Assembly (NCBI RefSeq): GCF_947503125.1
Contig: NZ_CANNCR010000002.1
Span: 186,001-250,000, forward strand
Length of the DNA stretch: 64,000 bases
Origin: an uncultured Metabacillus sp.
GTDB lineage: Bacteria > Bacillota > Bacilli > Bacillales > Bacillaceae
Direction of reading: 5' to 3'
Each line of letters opens with the position of its first letter. The stretch's first letter is position 1. The notes under the pieces are model-generated. The model searched no databases. It had not been told where the DNA came from and saw only the letters and a list, made by a program, of their open reading frames with translations. Shown in pieces: positions 1,911 to 24,904 of this stretch. A program made the translations under genes and the position numbers.

Positions 1911-2531
1911 GTGGGTGTACCAAAGCATAGAATGACTGGAACAAGACTTTATAAAATATGGGATGGAATGAAATATAGGTGCTACAAAGAAGATTCTACT
2001 CATTATCATAATTATGGTGGGAGGGGAATCAGTGTATGCGATGAATGGCGTGAAGACTTTATGAATTTCTACAATTGGGCGATGGAAAACGGCTATGAAG
2101 AAGAACTTCAGATTGATCGGATAGATAATGATGGAAATTACGAACCCTCAAACTGTCGTTGGGCTACAAGAAAAGAGCAAGGCAACAATAGAAGAACATG
2201 TGTTTACATAACCATAGACAAAGAGACTAAGACAGCAATTCAATGGGCGGAAGAAAATGATATTCATGTTTCAACATTGCTAAATAGATATCATAATGGC
2301 ATAGAAGGTTTAGCGTTACTTGAAAAACCAAAAGATAAAAATCCAGCAGAAAAACAAGTGCACATTGAGGGACTTACTTGGAGCAAAGATAAGAAGAAAT
2401 GGAGATTGAGACTAAGATTGGAAAAGAATAAGTTGAAACACTTTGGTTACTTTGACAACTTAGAAGATGCTATTGAAGAAAGAGATAAAATAATTAATAA
2501 ATTTAATTTAAAAATGTATTTACATAAGTAA
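1911..2531 (+). CDS. AP2-domain HNH-type putative homing endonuclease
   Basis: This 206-residue protein starts with GTG, 8 bases after a strong GAGGAGGT ribosome binding site. Residues 12-95 have the pattern of small phage nucleases (IWDGMKYRCY, YHNYGGRGI, IDRIDNDGNYEPSNCRWAT), an HNH-like fold with conserved Tyr/Gly/Asp/Asn positions. Residues 150-200 (GLTWSKDKKKWRLRL, HFGYFDNLEDAIEERDKI) look like an AP2/ERF DNA-binding domain, known from homing endonucleases. It separates yorK from yorL, which are adjacent in SPbeta, so it looks like an inserted mobile gene. The -35 of the polymerase promoter lies in its last codons. Confidence 0.75.
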   Translation: MGVPKHRMTGTRLYKIWDGMKYRCYKEDSTHYHNYGGRGISVCDEWREDFMNFYNWAMENGYEEELQIDRIDNDGNYEPSNCRWATRKEQGNNRRTCVYITIDKETKTAIQWAEENDIHVSTLLNRYHNGIEGLALLEKPKDKNPAEKQVHIEGLTWSKDKKKWRLRLRLEKNKLKHFGYFDNLEDAIEERDKIINKFNLKMYLHK

Positions 2532-2547
2532 ATTAATTATATATAAT
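2519..2547 (+). promoter_or_regulatory. Promoter for the phage DNA polymerase gene
   Basis: TTTACA at 2519-2524, a 17-base spacer and TATAAT at 2542-2547 match the sigma-A consensus closely. The -35 lies inside the last codons of the upstream AP2 gene. Transcription would begin near 2554, so the in-frame ATG at 2546 cannot be the translation start of the polymerase. Confidence 0.85.
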
Positions 2548-2578
2548 GAAAATAACAAATAAACAGAGGGGTGATAAA

Positions 2579-3973
2579 TTGATAGGTTGTCACTGTCATA
2601 CAGATAAAAGTAACATAAGGCTACTGGATTCAACTAATCGAGTAGCAGACTTACTAAAAACAGCAGTTGAAATGAACTATGCAGGATTAGCAATAACTGA
2701 TCACGAAGTTCTTTCAGCTCACGTTGAAGCAATTCAAACAGTCAGAAGCATGAAAAAAGAAGGTGAAATGCCTGAAGACTTCAAGCTTATTCTTGGAAAT
2801 GAGGCATACTTAGTAAACTCCATTGAAGAGGTTAAAGATAATTATAAATCAGGAGTAACAAAGTTTCCTCACTTCTTAATGTTAGCGAAGGATGCAGAAG
2901 GACATGAGCAACTTAGAATCTTATCAAGTAAAGCATGGGAAAACTCATTCTACACTGGAACAATGGAACGTGTACCAACAATTAAATCAGATGTTGAAGA
3001 AGTTGTAAAAAGTAATCCAGGTCATTTAATTGCAACAACTGCTTGTTTAGGATCTGAAGTTAACATTAATTTATTGGCCATTAAGGAAGCTGAGTTAGTA
3101 AACAATGAAGATAAAATTATTGAACATAAACAAATTATACATGAATTTATAACTTGGTGCATTGATGTTTTTGGTCAAGAAAACTTCTTTATCGAGCTAC
3201 AACCTGCTTTAAGCGATGAACAAATTTACTGCAATAAAAAACTAGTTGATATTGCAGATGCTTACGGTTTAAAGAGAATAGTATCAACTGATGCACACTT
3301 TTTAAGACCGGAAGACAGAGTTATTCATCAAGCGTTCCTAAATGCCAAAGATGGAGAGAGGGAAGTAGACCTCTTCTATGAAGCTTGTTTCGTTCAAAAT
3401 ATTGATGAGATAAGGGAAAGAATGGACTATCTAGAAAGAGAAATTGTAGATGAAGCAATAAAAAATACATTGCTAATTGGAGAAATGGTTGAAGAATATA
3501 CAATTGAACATGACCCAATTATACCAAAGATGGAACTACCAGACTTTGAATTAAGACATATGTTTAAACCGGCATATGAGAAGTATGAATACATAAATAA
3601 AATGGCATATTCAGAAGATGAGCAAGACAAGTATTTACTAAAATTAATTGAAGATGGATTTGAAGAGAAGTTATTGAAACCTGAGCTAACACAAGATAGC
3701 TTTCATGAAATATTAGAAAGAATCGATGTTGAATTAGGTGAACTTTGGGAAATTAGTCAAAAGTTAAATCAATCAATGTCATCATATTACGTTACTGTAC
3801 GTGAAATTATCAATATCATTTGGGGTGACGAATGTGGAGGGAACTCTTTAGTAGGGGTAGCAAGGGGTTCAGCAGCAGGTTATCTAGTTAACTATTTGAT
3901 TGATATTACACAAATTAACCCTATGACTTACAACTTGCCTCACTGGAGACATATTCACAAATCTAGACCAGAT
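2579..3973 (+). CDS. yorL: Phage DNA polymerase III alpha (YorL-like), exon 1 of 3
   Basis: Exon 1 (465 codons) begins with the PHP domain: CHCHTDKS at residues 4-11, then ITDHE and the later STDAHF. It ends in the start of the polymerase palm, ARGSAAGYLVNYL, RHIHKSRPD. I chose TTG at 2579 because AGGGGTGAT precedes it at good distance, while the longer frame's ATG at 2546 lies inside a -10 box. Joining exons at 3973/5281 and 6378/7517 restores one frame of about 1312 residues, close to the length of SPbeta YorL (about 1305, from memory). The splice falls just before the catalytic PDIDID motif. The gene is the replicative polymerase of the phage. Confidence 0.9.
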
Positions 3974-5280
3974 TATTGTGCTTAATTACTTGTTTTTACT
4001 ACATTAAAAGGAGAAGGAGGTGAAAACTTTGGCAGGAGCTAGAAAATACATTGTTAACGATAATTTTTTTGATGCTATAGATACTGAATCTAAAGCATAT
4101 TGGTTAGGTTTTATTTACGCAGATGGATGTGTGACAACACATAAGAACTCTAATTCGAAAATTCTTGAAATAGGTTTACAACTGTCTGATAAAGATCATT
4201 TGGAGAAGTTTAAACAAGACATTGAAACAAGCTATAGGATTACAGAGAAGAAGAATAGCTGTAGGATATCAATAGTTAGTGAAAAAATATTCAATGATCT
4301 AAATAAATATGGAATAGTAGCAAGAAAATCTAATTCAATTAAGCCACCAAGAAAAGATATGATTCCAGAACACTTAGAACATCACTTTATAAGAGGGATA
4401 TTTGACGGAGATGGAGGATTTACACTTGGTGATAAGTACTTAACTTTTGCTATAAATTTTTGTGGAACTAAAGAAACATGTGAATATATATTGGATTATT
4501 TTAATCTTAATGTAGCTATCAATGGAAAGAAAGGAACTAATGAAAACTTTAGACAACTTCGCATTAAGGGGAATGTACAAAGCTTACAAATTGCAAATAA
4601 GCTATACGAAGATGCCACTGTTTATCTAGATAGAAAATATGACCAATATACACAACTTCAACAGTTAAATGACGTTCAAAATTTAATAGATGAAATTTCA
4701 AAGTTAGAGTTTGATATTAAAAAACTTGAAATGACAAGACTGTTAAAAAGTGGGCTAACTGGAAAGGAAATAGCATCTATCTATGAATGTGGAGAAACAA
4801 ATTTAACAAGGTATACAAAAGAATATCGCAATAAAGAAAGATTAGAAAAGGAAAAGATCGTGCTTGATTTATTTAATAATGGAATTACAAACAAATCAGA
4901 GATTCATAGACAAACTGGGTTTTCTAGGGACTATATTCGTAAGGTATTAAAACAAGTAAACTAAGCATTTTTACAATAGTCGTGCATAGTGGAGACATTG
5001 TGCTTAAAGAGCCTCGAATTGCTGGAAACCCCTTATAGTTACACTGACCACAACGTAATTGGAAACGGTAAGCGTGACGGTTTGAAAACAGTGTAAATTG
5101 GGCAATCAGCAGCCAAGCTCCTGTGAGGAAACTCTGGAGAAGGTTCAACGACCAGTCCAAAGGGACGTAGCTTAATTGCGAAGTGGGGCAGCCCTAACGT
5201 AAAGTCGAGGGTGAAGATATGGTCTACTCCCGATTGACAGTAATGTCATGAGAAATATTCCGAAAGGAAGGGTATTAAGG
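3974..5280 (+). other. Group I intron 1 in the DNA polymerase gene
   Basis: The exon frame stops just after 3973, and the protein resumes at 5281 with PDIDID. The upstream exon ends in T and the intron ends in G, as group I splicing requires. The core after the endonuclease gene (about 5010-5280) holds GCTGGAAACCCC, GGGCAATCAGCAGCC, GGTTCAACGACCAG and GATATGGTCTACTCC, matching the P4-P7 elements of subgroup IA phage introns and shared with the other three introns here. A LAGLIDADG gene lies upstream of the core, so in a P1/P2 loop. I could not settle the P1 pairing by eye. Confidence 0.88.
4029..4964 (+). CDS. Intron-encoded LAGLIDADG homing endonuclease
   Basis: This 311-residue protein has two LAGLIDADG-type motifs, WLGFIYADG near residue 25 and IRGIFDGDGGF near residue 120, each ending in the metal-binding acidic residue, so it should work as a monomer. 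The C-terminal 80 residues hold two helix-turn-helix-like segments (GLTGKEIASIYECGETN and GITNKSEIHRQTGFSRDYI). TTG at 4029 is preferred over GTG at 4020, which overlaps the ribosome binding site AGGAGGTG. The enzyme is predicted to cut intronless polymerase alleles and drive homing of its intron. It is a relative of the endonuclease in intron 2. Confidence 0.88.
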   Translation: MAGARKYIVNDNFFDAIDTESKAYWLGFIYADGCVTTHKNSNSKILEIGLQLSDKDHLEKFKQDIETSYRITEKKNSCRISIVSEKIFNDLNKYGIVARKSNSIKPPRKDMIPEHLEHHFIRGIFDGDGGFTLGDKYLTFAINFCGTKETCEYILDYFNLNVAINGKKGTNENFRQLRIKGNVQSLQIANKLYEDATVYLDRKYDQYTQLQQLNDVQNLIDEISKLEFDIKKLEMTRLLKSGLTGKEIASIYECGETNLTRYTKEYRNKERLEKEKIVLDLFNNGITNKSEIHRQTGFSRDYIRKVLKQVN

Positions 5281-6378
5281 TATCCTGATATAGATATTGA
5301 CACTGAAGGAGCAAAAAGACAACAGATTCTTAAAGCATTAAGAAATAAATTTGGAACACATAGAGTATTACAAATAGCTACATTTGGGACAGAAGGTTCA
5401 AAATCTGCATTGCAAACTGCCTGTAGAGGTTTGGGTATAGACAATGATATTTCACAATATTTAAGTGGAATGATTCCGTTTGAAAGAGGATCTAACTGGT
5501 CTTTATCGGATTGCTTCTTTGGTAACGAAGAGAAGGAGCGTAAGCCAATTAAAGAATTTATCAGGGAAGTTGAACAGTATCCAAATTTAAAGGAAACTGC
5601 TTTGAAAATTGAAGGACTTGTAAATAAACGCTCTAGTCATGCTGCTGGAATAATTATATTCAACGATCATTACACTAAATCTAACGCAATGATGAAAACA
5701 CCTAAAGGGGCTTACATTACACAATTTAACATGGGAGATTCTGAGTCATTAGGGAATGTGAAGTATGATTTACTAACAATTGAAGCCCTTGATAAAATTC
5801 GTGTTACTTTAGATTATCTTATTGAACAAGGAGAAATTGAATGGCAAGGAAATTTAAAGGAAACTTACAACAAATATTTACACCCAGATGTAATTGACTA
5901 TGATAAACCCGAACTTTGGGAAATGGTTGGTAAAGGTGAAATTATGGATCTATTCCAGTTTTCAACTGAAGTAGGTTTTCAGTCTGCATTAAAGGTTAAA
6001 CCTAACAATCTACTTGAAGCAGCAGTTATTAACTCTTTAATGAGGTTAATGTCCGATGGTGAAGAACAGCCGGTAGATACATATATTAAGTTTAAAAATG
6101 ATATCGGCCTATGGTATCAAGAAATGCAAGACTATGGATTAACTGATGAAGAAATAATGATTATGGAGAATTATCTTAAAGATATATATGGAGTTGCTGA
6201 TACTCAAGAAGTGGTAATGATGATGGTTATGGATGAGAAGATTGCTAACTTTAGCATTGCAGAATCAAATAAATTACGTAAGGCCATCGCTAAAAAGAAG
6301 GAAAAAGTGTTAAAGGAAGCACAGGATTTATTCTTTGCAAAAGGTCGAGAAATTGGAACTTCCGACAACTTGTTGGAT
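5281..6378 (+). CDS. yorL: Phage DNA polymerase III alpha, exon 2 of 3
   Basis: Exon 2 (366 codons) opens with YPDIDIDTEG, holding two of the catalytic palm aspartates, and continues through the fingers region (RVLQIATFGTEGSKSALQ, NKRSSHAAGIIIF, GEIMDLFQFSTEVG). It ends with GREIGTSDNLLD at 6378, where the frame hits TAA on entering intron 2. An ATG at 5248 opens a longer unspliced frame, but that start is inside the intron and has no ribosome binding site. Confidence 0.9.
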
Positions 6379-7516
6379 TAAAAAATTGTTGTTTTAAATA
6401 ATAATTAAATTAATTAACTATATAGCAGAGGAGGTGTAGACAATGAGATTTAAAGCAACAGAAGAAATAGAGAAGTTTATTCTGGAACAATATGTAGTAC
6501 ATCGCAAATCAATGAGAGAAATACAGAGATTGGTAGGAGCAAATAGTCCGAATACAATTAAGAATATTTTAAATAAACATCAAGTTGAAGGAAGGTCTCT
6601 TTCAGAATCACGTAAAAAATATAGTTGTAGTTTAGACTTTTTTAAGGAGATTGATTCAGAGGATAAAGCATATTGGCTGGGTTTTATAATGGCAGACGGA
6701 TGTGTAACTAAAAAAACCTATAAAAACTCTAGCATGTTGAAAATAACGCTAAAAGTAAATGACATTAAACATTTAGAAAAATTTAAAAATGCAATAAATG
6801 GAACATATCCTATAAGGAAATATGAGCAACAAACGAATTATGGTTTGGGTAAGTATTGTGAAATAAAAATACAGGATGATATATTTTGCAGCCATTTGAA
6901 TCATAAAGGAGTTGTTCCCAATAAAAGCTTGATTCTTAAATATCCGAACATCTCAAATGAGTACAGTAAAGATTTTATTAGAGGATATTTTGATGGTGAT
7001 GGGTCAATCACACTTACAACAACCAAAGATAGAAATAGTTTTGGATTAAATATTATCGGCACAAAAGACATTTTATTAGGAATTATAAAAAATCTTAACT
7101 TATCAGATAAACATATTTATGAAATAAATAGTTACTACTTAATAAGCATTGGTGGCAATAAACAAGTCTACACTATTCTTAATTATTTGTACGAAGATGC
7201 AAATATTTTCTTAGATAGGAAATACAATAGATATTTATTATTAAAACAACAACAATTATAGTCCCTTATGTTAGTGATAACATAAGCAAACCTAGAATAT
7301 GCTGGAAACCCCTTAGAGCCTTTTGTAGAAATTGATATTAGAAATAATAGCAATACCTAAAAATCAAAAGGATTGGGCAATCAGCAGGGATAGACCTAAG
7401 TTGAATTTCAATATGGTAAGCCCCCAACGACTACCAATAGGCAGCTCATTGAGTTGATGGTATAGTCTACTCCGACTTTATAGTGTTAAAGTATCCTGAA
7501 AAGGACGGTACAAAGG
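6379..7516 (+). other. Group I intron 2 in the DNA polymerase gene
   Basis: The intron begins after GAT at 6378 (exon ends in T) and ends in G at 7516, after which TAC GTG TGG restores the frame. A candidate internal guide GTCC just after the endonuclease stop (about 7262-7265) pairs with exon GGAT, with the expected U.G at the splice site. That places the endonuclease gene in the P1 loop. The core (about 7290-7516) repeats GCTGGAAACCCC, GGGCAATCAGCAG, CCAACGAC and GGTATAGTCTACTCC. It interrupts codons for LLD-YVWN, just before the conserved GYSFSLLHTLAYS segment. Confidence 0.88.
6443..7261 (+). CDS. Intron-encoded LAGLIDADG homing endonuclease
   Basis: This 272-residue protein follows GAGGAGGTG with an ATG start. 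It carries two LAGLIDADG-type motifs, WLGFIMADG near residue 78 and IRGYFDGDGSI near residue 183. The N-terminal 55 residues form a helix-turn-helix-like segment (KSMREIQRLVGANSPNTIKNIL). Motif spacing and phrases such as KAYWLGFI, DGCVTKK and NIFLDRKYNRY show it is related to the intron 1 enzyme (VYLDRKYDQY), but its helix-turn-helix part is at the opposite end. It is predicted to spread intron 2 into intronless polymerase genes. Confidence 0.88.
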   Translation: MRFKATEEIEKFILEQYVVHRKSMREIQRLVGANSPNTIKNILNKHQVEGRSLSESRKKYSCSLDFFKEIDSEDKAYWLGFIMADGCVTKKTYKNSSMLKITLKVNDIKHLEKFKNAINGTYPIRKYEQQTNYGLGKYCEIKIQDDIFCSHLNHKGVVPNKSLILKYPNISNEYSKDFIRGYFDGDGSITLTTTKDRNSFGLNIIGTKDILLGIIKNLNLSDKHIYEINSYYLISIGGNKQVYTILNYLYEDANIFLDRKYNRYLLLKQQQL

Positions 7517-8962
7517 TACGTGTGGAATGTCCAGTTTAAACGACAATTTGGATACAGTTTCAGCTTACTTCATACATTGGCATACTCAGTTATTGCTCTC
7601 CAAGAGTTAAATCTTAATTATCACTACAATCCTTTATACTGGAACACTGCCTGTTTAACCGTTAACAGTGGAGGAATTGAAGATGAGGAAGATTTAGATA
7701 ATGAAGATGAAGAAGAAGACGACAAGAAAAAAACTCGTGCAACCAACTATGGTAAAGTTGCTTCGGCAATAGGAACTATTCGTCAACGTGGAGTTAAAGT
7801 AAATTTACCGGACATCAATAAGGCACAATTTGGATTCACTCCTGATATTCAAAATGATTCAATTGTCTTTGGTTTAAAAGGCCTAAATGGTATTGGGGAT
7901 GAAGTTGTACATTTAATCATGCAACATAGACCATATAATTCATTTGGTGATTTTTTAGATAGAATGTTTGAAACTGGGTTAGTTAAAAAAGGACAGATCA
8001 TACAGTTAATTAAAGCCGGATGCTTTGACTCATTCGAGGATAGAATTGAGATAATGAAGAAGTTCATTAAAATTGTAAGTGAACCTAAAGAAAAACTTAC
8101 AATGCAAAACTTTAACATGTTAATGGTTAATGATTTGATACCTGATAAATTTAATCTTGAAATAAGATTTTTCAAGTATAAAAACTACATATCTAAAAAT
8201 GTTCTGAAGACTATTTCTAAGCCAAAAGATAAACTGCTTATTATTGATGACATTGCATCAAATTTTTATAGTGAGCATTTCAGTGATGATGCAGTTGTTG
8301 ATACACATGAAGGTCAACTTGTTGTTTCTGAGAATAAATTTAAAAAACTGTATGATAAAAAAATGGAAGAAATTAAAGAGTGGATTTCATCAGAAGAAGC
8401 GTTAAATAGCCTAAATCAAAAGTTGTTAGAAAATGAATGGGATAAATACGCAAGTGGATCAATTAGTAAATGGGAAATGGATTCCTTAAGTTATTACTAT
8501 AATGAGCATGAATTAGCACATGTAAATAAAGAAAAGTATGGTATAGCCAACTTTTTCGAATTACCTGAAGAACCAATTAAAGGTAAGCCGTATACCTGGA
8601 GAGGAAGGCAAATGTTTGAATATGAGCTTACCAGATTAGCAGGAACAGTATTAGATAGAAACAAAACTAAACATACAATTTCATTGCTAACTCCCGATGG
8701 TGTTGTAACAGTTAAGATGTATTCTAGTAAATTTTCTTATTATGCAAAACAAATCTCTGAAAAACAAGGGGATAAAAAGGTAGTAATTGAAAAAAGTTGG
8801 TTCACAAGAGGAAATTTATTGATGTTCACTGGATATCGCAGGGGTAACAACTTTGTTGTTAAGACTTACAAAAATTCAATTTATCAAAATAGCGTAAGCC
8901 TTATTAACAAGGTAGATGAAGAAGGAAACCTATATTTAACAACAGAAAGAGTTAATACTTAG
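7517..8962 (+). CDS. yorL: Phage DNA polymerase III alpha, exon 3 of 3
   Basis: Exon 3 (481 codons plus stop) starts YVWNVQFKRQFGYSFSLLHTLAYS, the conserved DnaE segment next to the fingers. It then has a highly acidic linker near residues 55-75 of the exon (EDEEDLDNEDEEED), a helix-hairpin-helix region (FGLKGLNGIGDEVVHLI, IKAGCFDSF) and a C-terminal OB-like part (TRLAGTVLDRNKTKHTIS). The next gene begins 14 bases after its stop, with a shared ribosome binding site. No further interruption is visible. Confidence 0.9.
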   Translation, partial: YVWNVQFKRQFGYSFSLLHTLAYSVIALQELNLNYHYNPLYWNTACLTVNSGGIEDEEDLDNEDEEEDDKKKTRATNYGKVASAIGTIRQRGVKVNLPDINKAQFGFTPDIQNDSIVFGLKGLNGIGDEVVHLIMQHRPYNSFGDFLDRMFETGLVKKGQIIQLIKAGCFDSFEDRIEIMKKFIKIVSEPKEKLTMQNFNMLMVNDLIPDKFNLEIRFFKYKNYISKNVLKTISKPKDKLLIIDDIASNFYSEHFSDDAVVDTHEGQLVVSENKFKKLYDKKMEEIKEWISSEEALNSLNQKLLENEWDKYASGSISKWEMDSLSYYYNEHELAHVNKEKYGIANFFELPEEPIKGKPYTWRGRQMFEYELTRLAGTVLDRNKTKHTISLLTPDGVVTVKMYSSKFSYYAKQISEKQGDKKVVIEKSWFTRGNLLMFTGYRRGNNFVVKTYKNSIYQNSVSLINKVDEEGNLYLTTERVNT

Positions 8963-8975
8963 GAGGTGATTAATA

Positions 8976-10157
8976 TTGACCGATGCTTTCAAAAAGAACA
9001 GAAGACCTAGAGGATACTTTAACAATAAAGAAAATATAATTAAAGAAATAGCAAGAAGATATGAAAATGGTCTAAAGTTAAACAATAAAACAATGAGAAA
9101 TGAAGATAGTGGACTAATGACTGCTGCAATAAAGCATTTCAACAGTTGGGAAAACGCTATTAGGATAGCTGAATGTGACTACAGTGAAATACAGGAATCT
9201 CAAAAATGGACAAAAGATATAGTAGCAGCATCCCTGATTGACAGGCAGTTAAAGGGATTGGCTTTAAACCCTTCTGTTTTAAAGAATAATGATCATTCTT
9301 TATACAAAGCTTGCTTGAATCATTTTGGAAGCATTAAATCTGCAATTGAGTTTTCTGGACTTAATTATGAAGACACTAAACAAAATCACTCTTGGAGTAA
9401 GGAAAAGGTGATAAATAATTTATTAAAACGTTATCAAAATGGGCTGTCAATGAGTGTTAAAAGCATTAGCTTAGAGAATCCGTCTCTCTACAGTGCCAGT
9501 AAAAGGTTTTTTAAATGCTACAAAAACGCATTGTTAAATTGTGGTTTAACTTATGATGATGTAGGAGAAAGGAAAGATTGGAATAAGGATAAAGTTATAA
9601 TTGAATTGAAAAAGCGATTTAAAAGTGGAAAGCCAATGAGTGTTGATATTTTGTCTAGTGAAGATAGTTCATTATTAAATGCTTGCATTAGATACTTTAA
9701 CACATATAAAGAAGCCATTGAAGCATGTGAACTAAACTATGAAGATATAAGAGAAGACACTGAGCTATCTAGAATATATGGTTTTAAATTTGAAGAATTG
9801 TTAAGATCTATTTTACAAGAGTTGAAACTTACTCACACTAAAGGATTTAATAAGGAAATAAGACCAGATATTGTTTTAAAAAATAATCAATGGATGGACG
9901 CAAAACTATCAGAGCATACAATATTCAACTGTAAGACAATCGAGAAATATGAACCCCACTGTTCTTTATTAACTATTGTATATCTTAGAGGTAATAAGAA
10001 TAGAGTTCAAATGTTAACAAATAAAACAAAAATAATGAGTGTTTATAATTTAATTAAACAAATACCAAAAGGGGAAAGACAGTATTACACGCTACTGGCT
10101 GATAATTTGTGGAGTGAAGCAAATAAACACATAGAATTTAAACCCATTTTAAATTAG
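8976..10157 (+). CDS. Tandem-repeat protein with PD-(D/E)XK-like nuclease domain
   Basis: This 393-residue protein starts at TTG six bases after AGGAGGTGAT. Residues 20-265 are four copies of a module of about 63 residues (W.KE.VI..L..R...G......, then L..A...F.S...A...GL.YED). Each looks like a small DNA-binding helix bundle. The C-terminal 125 residues have FEELLRSIL, RPDIVL and WMDAKLS, the E...PD...DxK layout of a PD-(D/E)XK nuclease. Repeated binding modules plus a nuclease, in a neighbourhood full of intron endonucleases, suggest a free-standing homing endonuclease. The assignment is by pattern only. Confidence 0.6.
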   Translation: MTDAFKKNRRPRGYFNNKENIIKEIARRYENGLKLNNKTMRNEDSGLMTAAIKHFNSWENAIRIAECDYSEIQESQKWTKDIVAASLIDRQLKGLALNPSVLKNNDHSLYKACLNHFGSIKSAIEFSGLNYEDTKQNHSWSKEKVINNLLKRYQNGLSMSVKSISLENPSLYSASKRFFKCYKNALLNCGLTYDDVGERKDWNKDKVIIELKKRFKSGKPMSVDILSSEDSSLLNACIRYFNTYKEAIEACELNYEDIREDTELSRIYGFKFEELLRSILQELKLTHTKGFNKEIRPDIVLKNNQWMDAKLSEHTIFNCKTIEKYEPHCSLLTIVYLRGNKNRVQMLTNKTKIMSVYNLIKQIPKGERQYYTLLADNLWSEANKHIEFKPILN

Positions 10158-11827: not shown

Positions 11828-11896
11828 ATATCTATATGTAGTATATGAGATTGTATAAAATGATTGATTTATTTAGAATTAGAAAGGAGGAATTCA

Positions 11897-12643
11897 ATGG
11901 CTTTATCACCAGAAGAGAAACAAAAACGAGCTGAGGAACGTAAGTTAAAGAAGTGGAATGATACACACAAATTGATTGATGGTGTAGATCATAAAATTTG
12001 CAACAGATGTAACGAACATTATCCATCAACAAACGAGCACTTTTATAAAAATGATAAGAATGGCATTGATGGATTGTATCCCTATTGTAAAAAATGTGCA
12101 TTGGAACACTCATACGATTGGAGGGAAAACAATCGAGAGGGCTATCTAGAACAAATTAAACGTAGAAATAGTAAGCCTAAAGCAAGGAAACGTATATATG
12201 AAGCCAATAAGAGAAGACAAGAATCTGGAGAATTTAAAAAATGGCAGCAAGATAATAAAGATAAATTATTTCAATATAGGCTGAATAGAGGGAATAAACG
12301 TCATAAAATTAACAAGCAAGAATGGGAACAATGTAAAGCTTACTTTGATAATTCTTGTGCTTACTGTGGAATTACATATGATGATCATAAAGGGAAATTT
12401 AATGAAGACTTACATAAGGAACATGTTAACGATAAAGGTGCTGATGATTTAAGCAACTGCGTTCCTGCATGTAAGAGATGTAACAGTAAAAAACATATTT
12501 ACAGTTTAGAAGAGTGGTATCCGAGTCAAGAGTTTTATAGTGAAGGGAAACATGAAAAAATCAATAATTGGTTATCTAAGGATTATAAATTATACATAAA
12601 GGAAAAGAAGCCTAGAAAACCGTATACGAGAAAGTCTAGATAA
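11897..12643 (+). CDS. Free-standing HNH endonuclease with zinc ribbon
   Basis: ATG 11897 follows AAAGGAGG, giving 248 residues. An N-terminal ribbon (CNRCNEHYPS...YCKKC, about residues 36-65) is followed by a basic helical linker and an HNH domain near residues 155-205: CAYCGI, KEHVNDKGADDLSNCVPACKRCNSKK, with paired cysteines binding structural zinc. The gene sits between dNMP kinase and a small unknown gene and does not interrupt either, so it is probably a free-standing homing-type nuclease of the phage. Confidence 0.8.
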   Translation: MALSPEEKQKRAEERKLKKWNDTHKLIDGVDHKICNRCNEHYPSTNEHFYKNDKNGIDGLYPYCKKCALEHSYDWRENNREGYLEQIKRRNSKPKARKRIYEANKRRQESGEFKKWQQDNKDKLFQYRLNRGNKRHKINKQEWEQCKAYFDNSCAYCGITYDDHKGKFNEDLHKEHVNDKGADDLSNCVPACKRCNSKKHIYSLEEWYPSQEFYSEGKHEKINNWLSKDYKLYIKEKKPRKPYTRKSR

Positions 12644-20719: not shown

Positions 20720-21096
20720 GAATAGTTTATTTATCACTATCAGGCAACATTAGAAAATTTATAAATGATGGAGGGATTGAAGCTACTGAGATAAGTTATT
20801 CTAATCCCCTCATTGAAATTAACGAAGATTTTGTATTAATTGTCCCTTCATATGATCAAGAAATTACGGATTTAATGAGTGAGTTTATCGAATATGAAAA
20901 TAACGAAGAAAACTTGGTTGCAATTGTAGGAAGTGGAAGTAGAAACTTTAATGATGGGTTCTGCTTTAATGCAAAAGATTTGTCAGAGAAGTACAACAAA
21001 CCACTGATATTTAAGTTTGAATTTAGTGGAACGGAAGACGACATTATAAATTTTAAAAAGGAAGTGGAACTTATTGAAATCACCAGAACTAAGTAA
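20716..21096 (+). CDS. nrdI: NrdI flavodoxin
   Basis: A 126-residue protein: YLSLSGNIRKFI at the start (FMN phosphate loop), PSYDQEITDLM, and GSGSRNFNDGFCFNAKDLSEKY, as in NrdI. It supplies the oxidant that builds the metal/tyrosyl cofactor of NrdF. It overlaps nrdH by 4 bases and nrdE by 23 bases. Confidence 0.88.
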   Translation: MRIVYLSLSGNIRKFINDGGIEATEISYSNPLIEINEDFVLIVPSYDQEITDLMSEFIEYENNEENLVAIVGSGSRNFNDGFCFNAKDLSEKYNKPLIFKFEFSGTEDDIINFKKEVELIEITRTK

Positions 21097-22231
21097 GAAA
21101 GTTAAAGAAGATACGTATTTTACATTAAACAACTTATTAAACATTCCAAAAGATGGTCGTATTCAGTTGGATAAAGATAAAGAAGCTGCAAAGGCATATT
21201 TCTTAGAGCATGTTAATCCTAACACAGTATTCTTTCACACCTTGGATGAAAAATTAGATTACTTAATTGAAAATAACTACATTAAAGAAGACTTCTTGAA
21301 GAAGTACAGCCGTAAGTTTATTAAGAAAGTTTTTCAAAAGATATATAAAAAGAAATTTCGTTTCCGTTCATTTATGGGAGCATACAAGTTCTATAAGCAA
21401 TATGCTTTAACAACGGATGATGGGAAGAGATTCTTAGAAAGATTTGAAGATAGATTAGCTTTTAACGCACTTGCTTTAGCAGATGGAAATGAGCAATTAG
21501 CATTAGACTTAGCAGATGAATTAATTAATCAACGCTATCAACCTGCGACTCCAACATTTTTAAATATCGGTAAACAACGTGCTGGAGAAATGGTTTCTTG
21601 TTTCTTGCTAACAGTATCAGATGATATGAATTCAATTGGTCGTACTGTAAATTCAGCGTTGCAGCTATCAAAAATTTCTGGTGGCGTGGGAATAAATCTA
21701 ACTAACCTTCGTGCAAATAATGATCCTATAAAGGGTGTTTACGGTTTAGCAGATGGTGTTGTACCAGTAATGAAAATATTTGAAGATGCTTTCTCTTACT
21801 CTAATCAAGGTGGGAAAAGAGATGGCGCTGGAGTAGTTTACTTGAATATTTTTCATCCTGATGTAGTTGATTTCTTATCTGTTCGTAAAGAAAACGCAGA
21901 TGAAAAAGTACGAATTAAAACACTATCATTAGGATTAGTTGTACCAGATAAGTTTTATGAACTGATCAAGAAGAATGAGGATATGTATTTATTCTCGCCT
22001 CATGATGTTGAAAAAGAATACGGAACACCATTCTCTTATATTGATATCACTAAAGAATACGACAACATGGTTTCTAATCCCAATATCCGTAAATCTAAGA
22101 TTAAAGCTAGAGAACTAGAAACAGAGATTAGTAACTTACAGAATGAAAGTGGTTATCCATATATTATCAACATTGATCATGCAAATAGAGCTAATCCAGT
22201 AGATGGAAAGATTATAATGTCTAATTTGTGT
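21074..22231 (+). CDS. nrdE: Ribonucleotide reductase alpha NrdE, exon 1 of 3
   Basis: Exon 1 (386 codons) starts at TTG 21074 within nrdI, after AAGGAAGTGG. It holds AGEMVSCFLL (one of the redox cysteines), SKISGGVGINL and GGKRDGAGVVYL, and ends GKIIMSNLC, whose last codon is the thiyl-radical cysteine (equivalent to E. coli NrdA Cys439). Splicing at 22231/22491 and 23093/24479 gives one frame of about 728 residues. Class Ib enzymes reduce NDPs to dNDPs. SPbeta nrdE is also known to carry introns, plus an intein; no intein is seen here. Confidence 0.93.
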
Positions 22232-22490
22232 TAATAACCTAGCACCTTCATACAGTAATGTATGTCGAATAACCCTGTGAATTCGGTGGAAGTCTCAAGT
22301 AGATAATGCCGAGCCAAGTCATATAATTAAATTATATGAAAGGTGTAACGACTAGTCAGATGACGTACGCTCAAGCGAGTGGAAGCGCAGGGAGTCCCAA
22401 TGGGATTATGATATAGTCTGCTCTTACTGGTGACAGTAAGCTGTGGTTAGCCCACGCTCTAGAATTAGCGACTCTAGAGGAACATAAAGG
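22232..22490 (+). other. Compact group I intron in nrdE
   Basis: A 259-base intron without an open frame. The exon ends in T (codon TGT) and the intron in G. The guide GCAC at about 22242-22245 pairs with exon GTGT, with U.G at the splice site. Core elements include GAATTCGGTGGAAGTCTC, AATGCCGAGCCAAGTC, GTGTAACGACTAGTC and GATATAGTCTGCTC. After removal, ACG GAA ATA TTC CAG restores the NLC-TEIFQVQ motif of NrdE. Confidence 0.88.
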
Positions 22491-23093
22491 ACGGAAATAT
22501 TCCAGGTACAACAAGAATCTGTAATTAGCAATGATCAAACCTATGAAGTTCTTGGCAACGACATTAGCTGCAACTTAGGATCTACAAATGTAACAACTCT
22601 AATGGCTTCTCCTGACTTTGGTAAGTCTGTTAGAACAATGTTAAGAGCTTTAACTCATGTAACAAATGCATCCAATATTGATGTTGTTCCATCAGTTAAA
22701 AACGGTAACGATAAATACCATTCAGTAGGCTTAGGGGTTATGAACCTTCATGGGTTCCTAGCAAAAAATAAGATTTACTATGGCTCTCCTGAAGCATTGG
22801 AATTTACTGATATCTACTTTATGCTATTAAACTACTGGACTCTAGTTGAAAGTAATAACATTTCAATTGAGACAGGAAAGAAATTCTTTGAGTTTGAAAA
22901 ATCTAAATATGCAGATGGAACGTACTTTGATTTATATTTAAACGAACCTGACTTTGAATTCAAACATGATAAAGTTAAGTCACTATTCAAAGGAATCTTT
23001 ATTCCTAAGCATGAGGATTGGATCAAGTTAAAAGAGTCAGTAATGGAACATGGTATATATAATGCGTTTAGACTCGCTACCGCACCGACGGGT
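22491..23093 (+). CDS. nrdE: NrdE, exon 2 of 3
   Basis: Exon 2 (201 codons) opens TEIFQVQQESV and holds the conserved glutamate after the radical cysteine (N-L-C-x-E) and DISCNLGSTN with the second redox cysteine. It continues through GLGVMNLHGFLA and ends FRLATAPTG at 23093, where the frame enters intron 2. An ATG at 22602 exists inside but is not a real start. Confidence 0.92.
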
Positions 23094-23315
23094 TATTGAT
23101 TAGCCCCATTATGTAGTGATATGTAATGAAAACTTCTCGAATTGCGGGAAACCCCTAAAGATTCTATTACCAACTAATAATGGTGACATGTATTAGGGCG
23201 TTGCTAACCACAGCGATATGGTAAAAAGATAGAATATGTGACAATGGGCAATCCGCAGCCAAGCTTCCTATGTAAATAGGTAGAAGGTTCAACGACTGAT
23301 GTGGGAAGGATCTCT

Positions 23316-23345
23316 TTTATAAATAAACTTAACTTAATATATAAT
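23316..23345 (+). promoter_or_regulatory. Promoter of the intron-borne HNH gene
   Basis: TTTATA at 23316-23321, 18 bases, TATAAT at 23340-23345. It belongs to the recurrent phage element. It overlaps the ATG at 23344, so translation must begin further downstream. Confidence 0.6.
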
Positions 23346-23361
23346 GAACGGAGGTGAGTAT

Positions 23362-24366
23362 TTGATAAAAGTAAATAAATGTCGTGAGTGTGATATAGAA
23401 TATGAAACGAAATCATTCAAGAGTCTGTTTTGCTCAGATAAGTGTTCACAAAGACATAGGAGAAAAATAGAGAAAAAGAAAAAAGAAAGAGAATTAAAAT
23501 GTCCAAACTGTGATATTGTTTTTACAACATCTAACACTAGAAAGAAATTTTGTACTATTAAGTGTAAAGATGAATATAAAAATAATAAAAAGCTAAAAGG
23601 AACATTGGAGAAAAAATGCGTGATCTGTGAATCTTCCTTTACAGTAGAAGGTAAAGCGAGACAATCGGTTTTTTGCTCAGAAGAATGTAGAAAACAAAGA
23701 TGGAGATTAAAACTGGTTGAAAAACAATGTCCTGTTTGCGAAAAAATGTTTAAAGGTAATCATAATCAAGTCTGTTGTTCCCCTAAATGTGCAAATGAAA
23801 AAAGAAAAGTTAGGATTGAGATCAATTGTCCGACATGTAAAGAAAACTTCTATGTTGAACCAAACAAAGCACATAGAAAATTCTGCTCTAGGAAATGTGC
23901 ATCAAAATCTAGAGAGGTAGATAAAGAAACACCGAATTGCAAGTGTGATAATTGCGAAGAGGAATTTTACAGACCGTTAGCACAACAAAAAGGACATGAA
24001 CATCATTTTTGCTCAAGAAAGTGTAATGGAGAGTTTAATTCCAAGTACGGTTTAGTAGCAGGTAAAAATAATGGCAATTATACAGGTTCTTTTGATAGGC
24101 ATAAGAAATATTACGGTGAGGATTGGCTTCCTCAAAGAAGGAAAGCTAGATTGAGAGATAATTATACTTGTCAACAATGTGGAATCACAGAAGATGAGTA
24201 TGGCATGGAGCTATCTGTCCATCATATTACACCTTTTGTTGCCTTTAAAGATACTAAAGAGGCGAATAAGTTAGATAATCTCTTATGTGTATGTGAACCT
24301 TGCCATCGCAAAATACATAGTGGTGAAAACCATCCTAGAAATTATAAGAAATACATAGACTTATAA
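23362..24366 (+). CDS. Intron-encoded HNH endonuclease with multiple zinc-finger repeats
   Basis: TTG 23362 follows GGAGGTGAG. The 334-residue protein has about seven CxxC...FCSxxC modules in residues 1-235 (CRECDIEYE...FCSDKC; CPNCDIVFT...FCTIKC; CVICESSF...FCSEEC; and so on). An HNH domain follows at residues 265-325: YTCQQCGI, LSVHHITPF, NLLCVCEPCHRKIH. The fingers probably read a long DNA target. It is predicted to cut intronless nrdE and promote intron homing. Confidence 0.88.
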   Translation: MIKVNKCRECDIEYETKSFKSLFCSDKCSQRHRRKIEKKKKERELKCPNCDIVFTTSNTRKKFCTIKCKDEYKNNKKLKGTLEKKCVICESSFTVEGKARQSVFCSEECRKQRWRLKLVEKQCPVCEKMFKGNHNQVCCSPKCANEKRKVRIEINCPTCKENFYVEPNKAHRKFCSRKCASKSREVDKETPNCKCDNCEEEFYRPLAQQKGHEHHFCSRKCNGEFNSKYGLVAGKNNGNYTGSFDRHKKYYGEDWLPQRRKARLRDNYTCQQCGITEDEYGMELSVHHITPFVAFKDTKEANKLDNLLCVCEPCHRKIHSGENHPRNYKKYIDL

Positions 24367-24478
24367 ATAAATTAATTATAAAAGAGATTATGATACAGTC
24401 TGCACTTTAGGGAAACCTAAAGAGATGAGAGGAACAGAAACTACTCATCCCCTTGTAAAACAAGGAGTAACAAAATGG

Positions 24479-24904
24479 AGCATCAGTTACGTAAATGAAG
24501 CAACTGCTTCAATTCATCCAATTACGCAGCGTATTGAGGAAAGAACAGAAGGTAAGCGTGGTAAAGTTTATTATCCAGTTCCATACCTGTCTGATGAAAC
24601 AATCAAATACTATGAATCAGCCTATGATATTGATCAACGAAAAATCATTGATACTTATGCAAAAGCAACAAAACATGTTGATCAAGGGCTTAGTATGACA
24701 TTATTTTTAAGATCAGAACTCCCTGAGGGAATGTACGAGTGGAAAATTGACAGTGAATATCCAACAAAGAAAACAACTAGAGATTTAAATATTCTCCGAA
24801 ATTATGCCTGGAAACAAGGCGTTAAATCAATATATTACATTAGAACATTTACAGATGATGGAGAAGAAGTTGGAGCAAATTACTGTGAGAACTGCTCAAT
24901 TTAA
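24479..24904 (+). CDS. nrdE: NrdE, exon 3 of 3
   Basis: Exon 3 (141 codons plus stop) begins SISYVNEATASIHPI, containing the phosphate-binding loop completed by APTG of exon 2. It ends GANYCENCSI, whose CxxC pair takes electrons from NrdH. nrdF starts 17 bases later behind AAGGGAGG. A TTG/ATG further upstream in the intron opens a longer frame but has no function. Confidence 0.92.
   Translation, partial: SISYVNEATASIHPITQRIEERTEGKRGKVYYPVPYLSDETIKYYESAYDIDQRKIIDTYAKATKHVDQGLSMTLFLRSELPEGMYEWKIDSEYPTKKTTRDLNILRNYAWKQGVKSIYYIRTFTDDGEEVGANYCENCSI

Follow-up and report, generated by a model that had tools for sequence, protein, structure and literature searches.

A family C DNA polymerase gene of an SPbeta-like prophage, probably interrupted by two group I introns with LAGLIDADG endonuclease genes

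The window analysed here (a stretch of 64,000 nucleotides from an uncultured Metabacillus sp.; the assembly is bacterial, 5.44 Mb in 244 contigs) encodes a YorL-like DNA polymerase in three pieces, and each of the two gaps between the pieces holds a homing endonuclease gene (HEG) of the two-motif LAGLIDADG type. To judge from the sequence, an SPbeta-like prophage very probably has its gene for the replicative DNA polymerase here (family C, DnaE/YorL-type), and two mobile group I introns have inserted into it. An original prediction made for this locus had proposed two group I introns in such a polymerase gene, and this is the best reading after our analysis; as far as can be told from sequence, the coordinates and splice points given there are correct to the single base. 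The predicted features are listed below (a hyphen within a sequence marks a junction).

2579..3973, plus strand: polymerase exon 1, with the PHP domain and the first part of the DNA_pol3_alpha domain; last residues ...HKSRPD
3974..5280, plus strand: intron 1, group I, between RPD and (Y)PDIDID
3971..3979, plus strand: intron 1 P1, 5' strand, exon GAU and intron UAUUGU
4020..4964, plus strand: HEG1, two-motif LAGLIDADG homing endonuclease, in the intron 1 P1 loop
4973..4981, plus strand: intron 1 P1, 3' strand, internal guide sequence ACAAUAGUC; G 4979 faces exon U 3973
4984..5280, plus strand: intron 1 ribozyme core, with P2, P3, P4, P7, P8, P9 and the terminal G
5281..6378, plus strand: polymerase exon 2, with the PDIDID motif and the finger domain; last residues ...SDNLLD
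6379..7516, plus strand: intron 2, group I, between LLD and YVWN
6376..6393, plus strand: intron 2 P1, 5' strand, GAU-UA (6376-6380) and AAUUGUUGUU (6384-6393)
6443..7261, plus strand: HEG2, two-motif LAGLIDADG homing endonuclease, in the intron 2 P1 loop; stop UAG 7259-7261
7248..7263, plus strand: intron 2 P1, 3' strand, internal guide sequence, overlapping the HEG2 end; G 7261 faces exon U 6378
7265..7516, plus strand: intron 2 ribozyme core, with P2, P4, P7, the 3' end and the terminal G
7517..8962, plus strand: polymerase exon 3, with GYSF...LHTLAYS and HHH_6; closes with the stop codon

Joined from TTG 2579, the three exons (1395, 1098 and 1446 nt, separated by introns of 1307 and 1138 nt) form one frame of 1313 codons including the stop (1312 residues), in agreement with the approximately 1312 codons of the original prediction; the same join started at ATG 2546 gives 3972 nt with a single, terminal stop. 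TTG 2579, which lies behind AGAGGGGTGA, is the likelier start codon because the listed open reading frames (ORFs) of the related loci L022, L024 and L008 start at the same residue. Both 5' exons end in T and both introns in G, as had been claimed. In domain and similarity searches the joined product is collinear over its full length with YorL-type family C polymerases (PHP, pol3_alpha, finger and HHH domains), and alignment with the uninterrupted YorL of SPBc2, a check that the original prediction had named, gave 74.7% identity with 99% of the query aligned. The upstream gene (188-1897) is 52% identical to SPbeta YorK, and together with the YorL-like polymerase it marks the region as an SPbeta-like replication region. 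Compared with SPbeta yorL, exons 1, 2 and 3 have pN values of 0.129, 0.135 and 0.233 and pS values of 0.805, 0.683 and 0.757, respectively; all three exons are under constraint, and synonymous sites are near or at saturation in this comparison.

Intron 1 was expected immediately before the PDIDID motif, which we take to be catalytic in this polymerase family, and intron 2 ahead of the GYSF...H..AY segment, and both placements were borne out by the homologs. At junction 1 the window reads ...HKSRPD-YPDIDIDTEG and the commonest homolog ...HKSRPDLPDIDIDTEG, with no gap within 15 residues of the junction in 45 of 51 distinct homologous loci. The remaining six have small gaps, which lie upstream of the junction in L044, L053 and L054; L050, L057 and L059 each have one no more than a few residues from it. 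Junction 2 (...SDNLLD-YVWNVQFKRQFGYSF) is ungapped in all 54 homologous loci. These counts leave out the window's own loci (L004 and L060), and many of the loci counted are near-duplicates. Without splicing, the exon 1 frame hits a TAA at codon 4 of intron 1 and the exon 2 frame a TAA at codon 1 of intron 2. These stops bear on the idea that the insertions are inteins, removed after translation. Inteins are said to favour conserved sites as well in a passage of one source (PMC2814812), and SPbeta nrdE holds one according to a passage of another (PMC3653736), but the exon frame here ends three sense codons into intron 1 and immediately on entering intron 2, and we regard the probability of this alternative as negligible. 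An in-frame intein is excluded by the stop codons under translation table 11.

The covariance-model check named in the original prediction, run with the Rfam group I model RF00028, gave a hit in each of the two regions, above the Rfam cut-off for intron 1 and below it for intron 2. Intron 1 scored 64.7 bits at 4912-5242 (3.7-kb scan, E 1) and passes the cut-off of 50, whereas intron 2 scored 41.4 bits at 7247-7489 (E 1.9e-9; 321-base scan, E 10). The P1 helix of intron 1, just behind HEG1, has 9/9 pairs, with U.G falling precisely on the 5' splice site; only 3 of 960 control 9-mers pair equally well. In intron 2, GAU-UA pairs with UAGUC, again with U.G at the 5' splice site, and after a small internal loop a 10-bp helix follows (6384-6393/7248-7257). 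P7 has 5/5 pairs in each intron (GACCA 5150-5154 with UGGUC 5220-5224 in intron 1, GACUA 7429-7433 with UAGUC 7463-7467 in intron 2), and differs between the two at the fourth pair (C-G in intron 1, U-A in intron 2). The core alignment comprises four rows, two of them near-identical. An intron at the site of intron 1 was also found in three viral contigs from IMG/VR (L022, together with L040 and L043, which are 3 and 2 bases away from it, respectively), with an HEG 59% identical to HEG1. The L022 intron scored 60.9 bits with RF00028; its P1 is changed yet paired (GAU-UGUC/GAUAGUC), and its P9 differs on both strands.

The ribozyme signals also bear on the possibility of a split enzyme, in which three separate polypeptides would be made and the gaps would be ordinary intergenic regions with free-standing endonuclease genes. 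Each piece is indeed an open frame, the exon 2 frame has an ATG (5248) inside the intron, as it does in L022, and Staphylococcus and Enterococcus phage records annotate the pieces as separate genes. However, the exon ends abut exactly at conserved residues, with not one homolog gapped at junction 2, a ribozyme core and a P1 fall at exactly those points, and the first cut lies directly before the presumably catalytic PDIDID motif. We therefore consider a split enzyme very unlikely.

Several observations weigh against the reading as two group I introns. The intron 2 score of 41.4 bits is below the Rfam cut-off, and the 3.7-kb scan at E 1 missed this intron and found intron 1 only. The short P1 of intron 2 (7/9 pairs) was equalled or beaten by 213 of 1079 control 9-mers, the additional 10-bp helix was spotted post hoc, without a control, and P8 pairs in one of two registers tried and not in the other. 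In both introns P6 could not be placed by hand despite a second attempt, and P5 was likewise unsettled by hand. Minimum free energy folding of intron 1 did not yield the full canonical fold (z -2.13). A scan of the whole 64-kb window at the gathering threshold found neither polymerase intron; the missed scans show that such introns readily escape detection. The score of intron 2 would also suit introns that no longer splice, in a dead polymerase gene of a decaying prophage, but the three exons are open and constrained and both HEGs are intact with both motifs, which makes a dead gene highly improbable. Two group I introns within a functional polymerase gene remain our preferred interpretation.

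HEG1 and HEG2 share about 40% identity, and both contain the motifs KAYWLGFIxADG and FIRGxFDGDG with the acidic residues present. Both exceed the cut-off (22.5) of Pfam LAGLIDADG_3, with 29.6 bits for HEG1 and 33.5 for HEG2, and both match phrog_4645 (E 5e-53 and 4e-54, respectively). TTG 4029 is the likelier start of HEG1, from its spacing to the ribosome site as judged by eye. The predicted structure of HEG1 (pLDDT 84.2) matches solved LAGLIDADG endonucleases including I-GzeII and I-AniI (E 3e-8 and 5e-8), with TM-scores, normalized by query length, of 0.44 and 0.49, respectively. Its C-terminus resembles HTH_28 at 21 bits, under the Pfam cut-off of 25, and the N-terminal extension of HEG2 is HTH-like by eye only. 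Comparison of HEG1 with the L022 HEG gave pN 0.296 and pS 0.671. In viral contigs, relatives of HEG2 occur at 12 loci; of the nine whose flanks were inspected, most appear free-standing by eye and L070 is perhaps intron-borne, and an Rfam scan of seven such loci returned no match. The HEG1 query found no relatives in viral contigs, a search that was insensitive, since the polymerase search had fetched three.

From the sequence we infer splicing, endonuclease production and cutting, and placement of the introns by homing. Upon induction, each intron would fold within the transcript, and its internal guide sequence (...AUAGUC) would form P1 with the GAU that ends the exon, the U.G wobble lying at the 5' splice site. 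This is where a bound guanosine would attack, the freed exon would then attack after the terminal G, and the joined exons would form the mRNA for the 1312 residues. Each LAGLIDADG endonuclease may be made from unspliced RNA; if a co-infecting relative had an allele without the intron, the enzyme would cut that allele around the insertion site, and repair would copy the intron in. With an HEG of 0.8-0.9 kb inside the P1 loop, P1 should close only once ribosomes have cleared the gene. In intron 2, P1 includes the UAG stop of HEG2, whose G is the one in the U.G pair at the splice site, and the exon-frame stop UAA 6379-6381 faces this endonuclease stop. The arrangement might conceivably act as a built-in switch, in which translation of the HEG to its end keeps P1 open and splicing waiting, and P1 forms and polymerase is made when ribosomes stop, although we consider such a role doubtful.

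The surroundings of the gene contain further endonuclease-like genes. An HNH endonuclease gene (phrog_3377; 1911-2531) lies directly upstream of the polymerase, an HNH_repeat protein with a score under the Pfam cut-off directly downstream (8976-10157), and a third endonuclease-like ORF, HNH-like by eye only, at 11864-12643. Elsewhere in the window (21074-24904) an nrdE-like ribonucleotide reductase gene is seemingly split by two group I introns as well, with RF00028 matches of 76.4 bits at 22222-22440 and 52.4 bits at 23085-23364; the second contains a 340-aa ORF (23344-24366), HNH-like by eye. When positions 1-25000 of the window were compared with plasmids at near-identity, the sole matches were two short ones in nrdE. 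Another contig of the same genome (C27:6212-6491, minus strand; L006) has a group I-like match of 42.6 bits, under the cut-off. In Bacillus phage PJN02 (L083, 1239-4678) a RecD-like helicase gene is split around a related endonuclease close behind its 5' part, perhaps another intron with an HEG at its 5' end.

Among whole genomes, the polymerase was found in one of 21 from the genus, namely the window's own (E 1e-60), in 5 of 80 at family level and in 2 of 397 sampled from the order (E 1e-80), with the window's genome included in each count. The five copies in other whole genomes are all uninterrupted. Among 47 loci in IMG/VR viral contigs, 10 have an insertion of more than 200 nt in the polymerase, five before or in PDIDID (L022, L024, L025, L040 and L043) and five near GYSF (L008, L020, L032, L047 and L051); none of the 47 has two insertions in one polymerase (L046 covers residues 552-1320 only). 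GenBank phages yielded 136 matching records at E 1e-60, and among the 60 matches listed, 12 are in more than one piece and seven in three. Of the phage records retrieved, Enterococcus phage EF1 and Enterocloster phages CB457P1, CB457P2 and CB473P3 have two insertions, at PDIDID and near GYSF; Staphylococcus SPbeta-like phage KT429160 has one at the PDIDID motif, and in SEP9 the polymerase, annotated as a joined gene, has a single insertion. Altogether, 18 of 64 polymerase loci outside the window's own genome carry insertions. Those at PDIDID fall at three points: the site of the window (also L022, L040 and L043), 6 nt further on (L001 and L078), and 9 nt further on (L024, L025, L058 and L082, with L079-L081 at the corresponding PD codon). 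At the intron 2 site (residue 842) no insertion was placed in these 64 loci. The Enterocloster second-site alignments break between residues 843 and 856, and the insertion was put near 855, since alignment of the upstream piece extends to there. In L056 (Staphylococcus phage S-CoN_Ph16, approximately 1980-3104) an insertion of about 1.2 kb lies near residue 167-189, in the PHP domain, unlike the other sites.

P1-like hairpins of at least 7 bp were found at 13 of 18 listed sites, as compared with 176 of 1702 control T positions, the rows not being independent; in the Enterocloster second-site rows (three phages) the hairpin is just 5 bp. Scanned as whole loci with Rfam at E 0.01, two of six gave matches (L022 and L058) and L001, L008, L024 and L056 gave nothing. 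On short stretches L024 scored 21.1 and 17.1 bits and L008 24.0 and 15.8 bits, and L001 had no match, so the group I status of L001, L008 and L024 is based on hand-found P1 and P7-like motifs only. At L001 and L078-L081 the pieces are annotated separately (dnaE_1/dnaE_2, DNA polymerase III alpha subunit, 'hypothetical protein'); they are probably exons of one gene. Of 15 polymerase introns outside the window, nine have an ORF of at least 90 aa. In eight of these the distance from the intron start to the ORF is 138 nt or more, which puts the ORF beyond the placed hairpin P1 (the placement is weak at the Enterocloster second site), and among the nine only L022, with an ORF starting at nt 24, has the P1-loop design.

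The original prediction knew of no twice-interrupted polymerase of this type in an SPbeta-like phage. The double case is indeed unmatched among SPbeta-like polymerases in the sets examined, but EF1 and the Enterocloster phages are doubly interrupted in the same polymerase type, and the novelty is modest. Also new are the insertion site of intron 2, placed nowhere else in these sets, and two introns with an HEG in the P1 loop, in one of which the guide sequence contains the HEG stop codon. In phage polymerases of family C, the codons for PDIDID emerge as a repeated landing place for introns, with three entry points, the second 6 nt and the third 9 nt beyond the first. The insertions differ in their endonuclease ORFs or have none, and they come from SPbeta-like loci and from Staphylococcus, Lactobacillus, Enterococcus and Enterocloster phages. 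For annotators this is a specific argument for merging polymerase pieces that are currently recorded as individual genes, and the pair of P1-loop endonuclease introns offers a test case for competition between translation and splicing.

The closest counterparts of intron 1 are those of L022, L040 and L043, which share the site before (L)PDIDID, an alignable core and the HEG in the P1 loop; they differ from the window in having a single insertion and in joining their exon to leucine rather than tyrosine. In KT429160, SEP9, Lactobacillus phage Maenad, EF1, CB457P1, CB457P2 and CB473P3 the insertions lie 6 or 9 nt from the PDIDID site of the window, and the second insertion of EF1 and the three Enterocloster phages near GYSF is at residue 854-855 or so, as opposed to 842. 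Those phage insertions have either no ORF of at least 90 aa or ORFs of which some are annotated as HNH or I-HmuI, in contrast to the LAGLIDADG type of the window, and their P1, where it could be placed, is a short hairpin, whereas the HEGs of the window lie in the P1 loop. L008, L020, L032, L047 and L051 resemble the window in having an insertion near the intron 2 site of an SPbeta-like polymerase, although theirs is 37 nt downstream (GGGT-AT of GYSF). L008 and L020 hold an ORF, which lies behind P1 and the P7 5' strand and is HNH-like by eye; the better Rfam score of L008 is the 24.0 bits given above.

The phrog_17 DNA polymerases of Bastillevirinae are presumably of family A, unlike the family C polymerase of the window. 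Their genes are reported, in the part of PMC11878797 that concerns them, to be split by as many as two or three group I introns that carry HEGs; splicing was demonstrated for some, and the endonucleases are mostly HNH rather than LAGLIDADG. Introns in a phage family C polymerase were not recognised in the literature (open-licence PMC papers only), and neither was a phage intron with an HEG in P1, the latter being a weak negative. For a phage with a named DNA polymerase III alpha subunit, a passage states that the homing endonucleases are free-standing (PMC7685451), and a passage on Staphylococcus phages mentions group I introns in morphogenesis and DNA replication proteins, with the gene unnamed there (PMC6507118). 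HEGs inserted in P1 are described for the myxomycete S1389 introns in a passage of PMC8395846, but these are nuclear rRNA introns with His-Cys endonucleases. SPbeta itself has group I introns and an intein in bnrdE/bnrdF, as a passage of PMC3653736 relates: the phage group is the same and the genes are likewise linked to replication, but they encode ribonucleotide reductase and not a polymerase. Group I introns and homing endonucleases prefer conserved codons according to passages in three sources (PMC3984707, PMC3943268, PMC2814812), and repeated entry at the conserved codons of family C phage polymerases fits this known preference.

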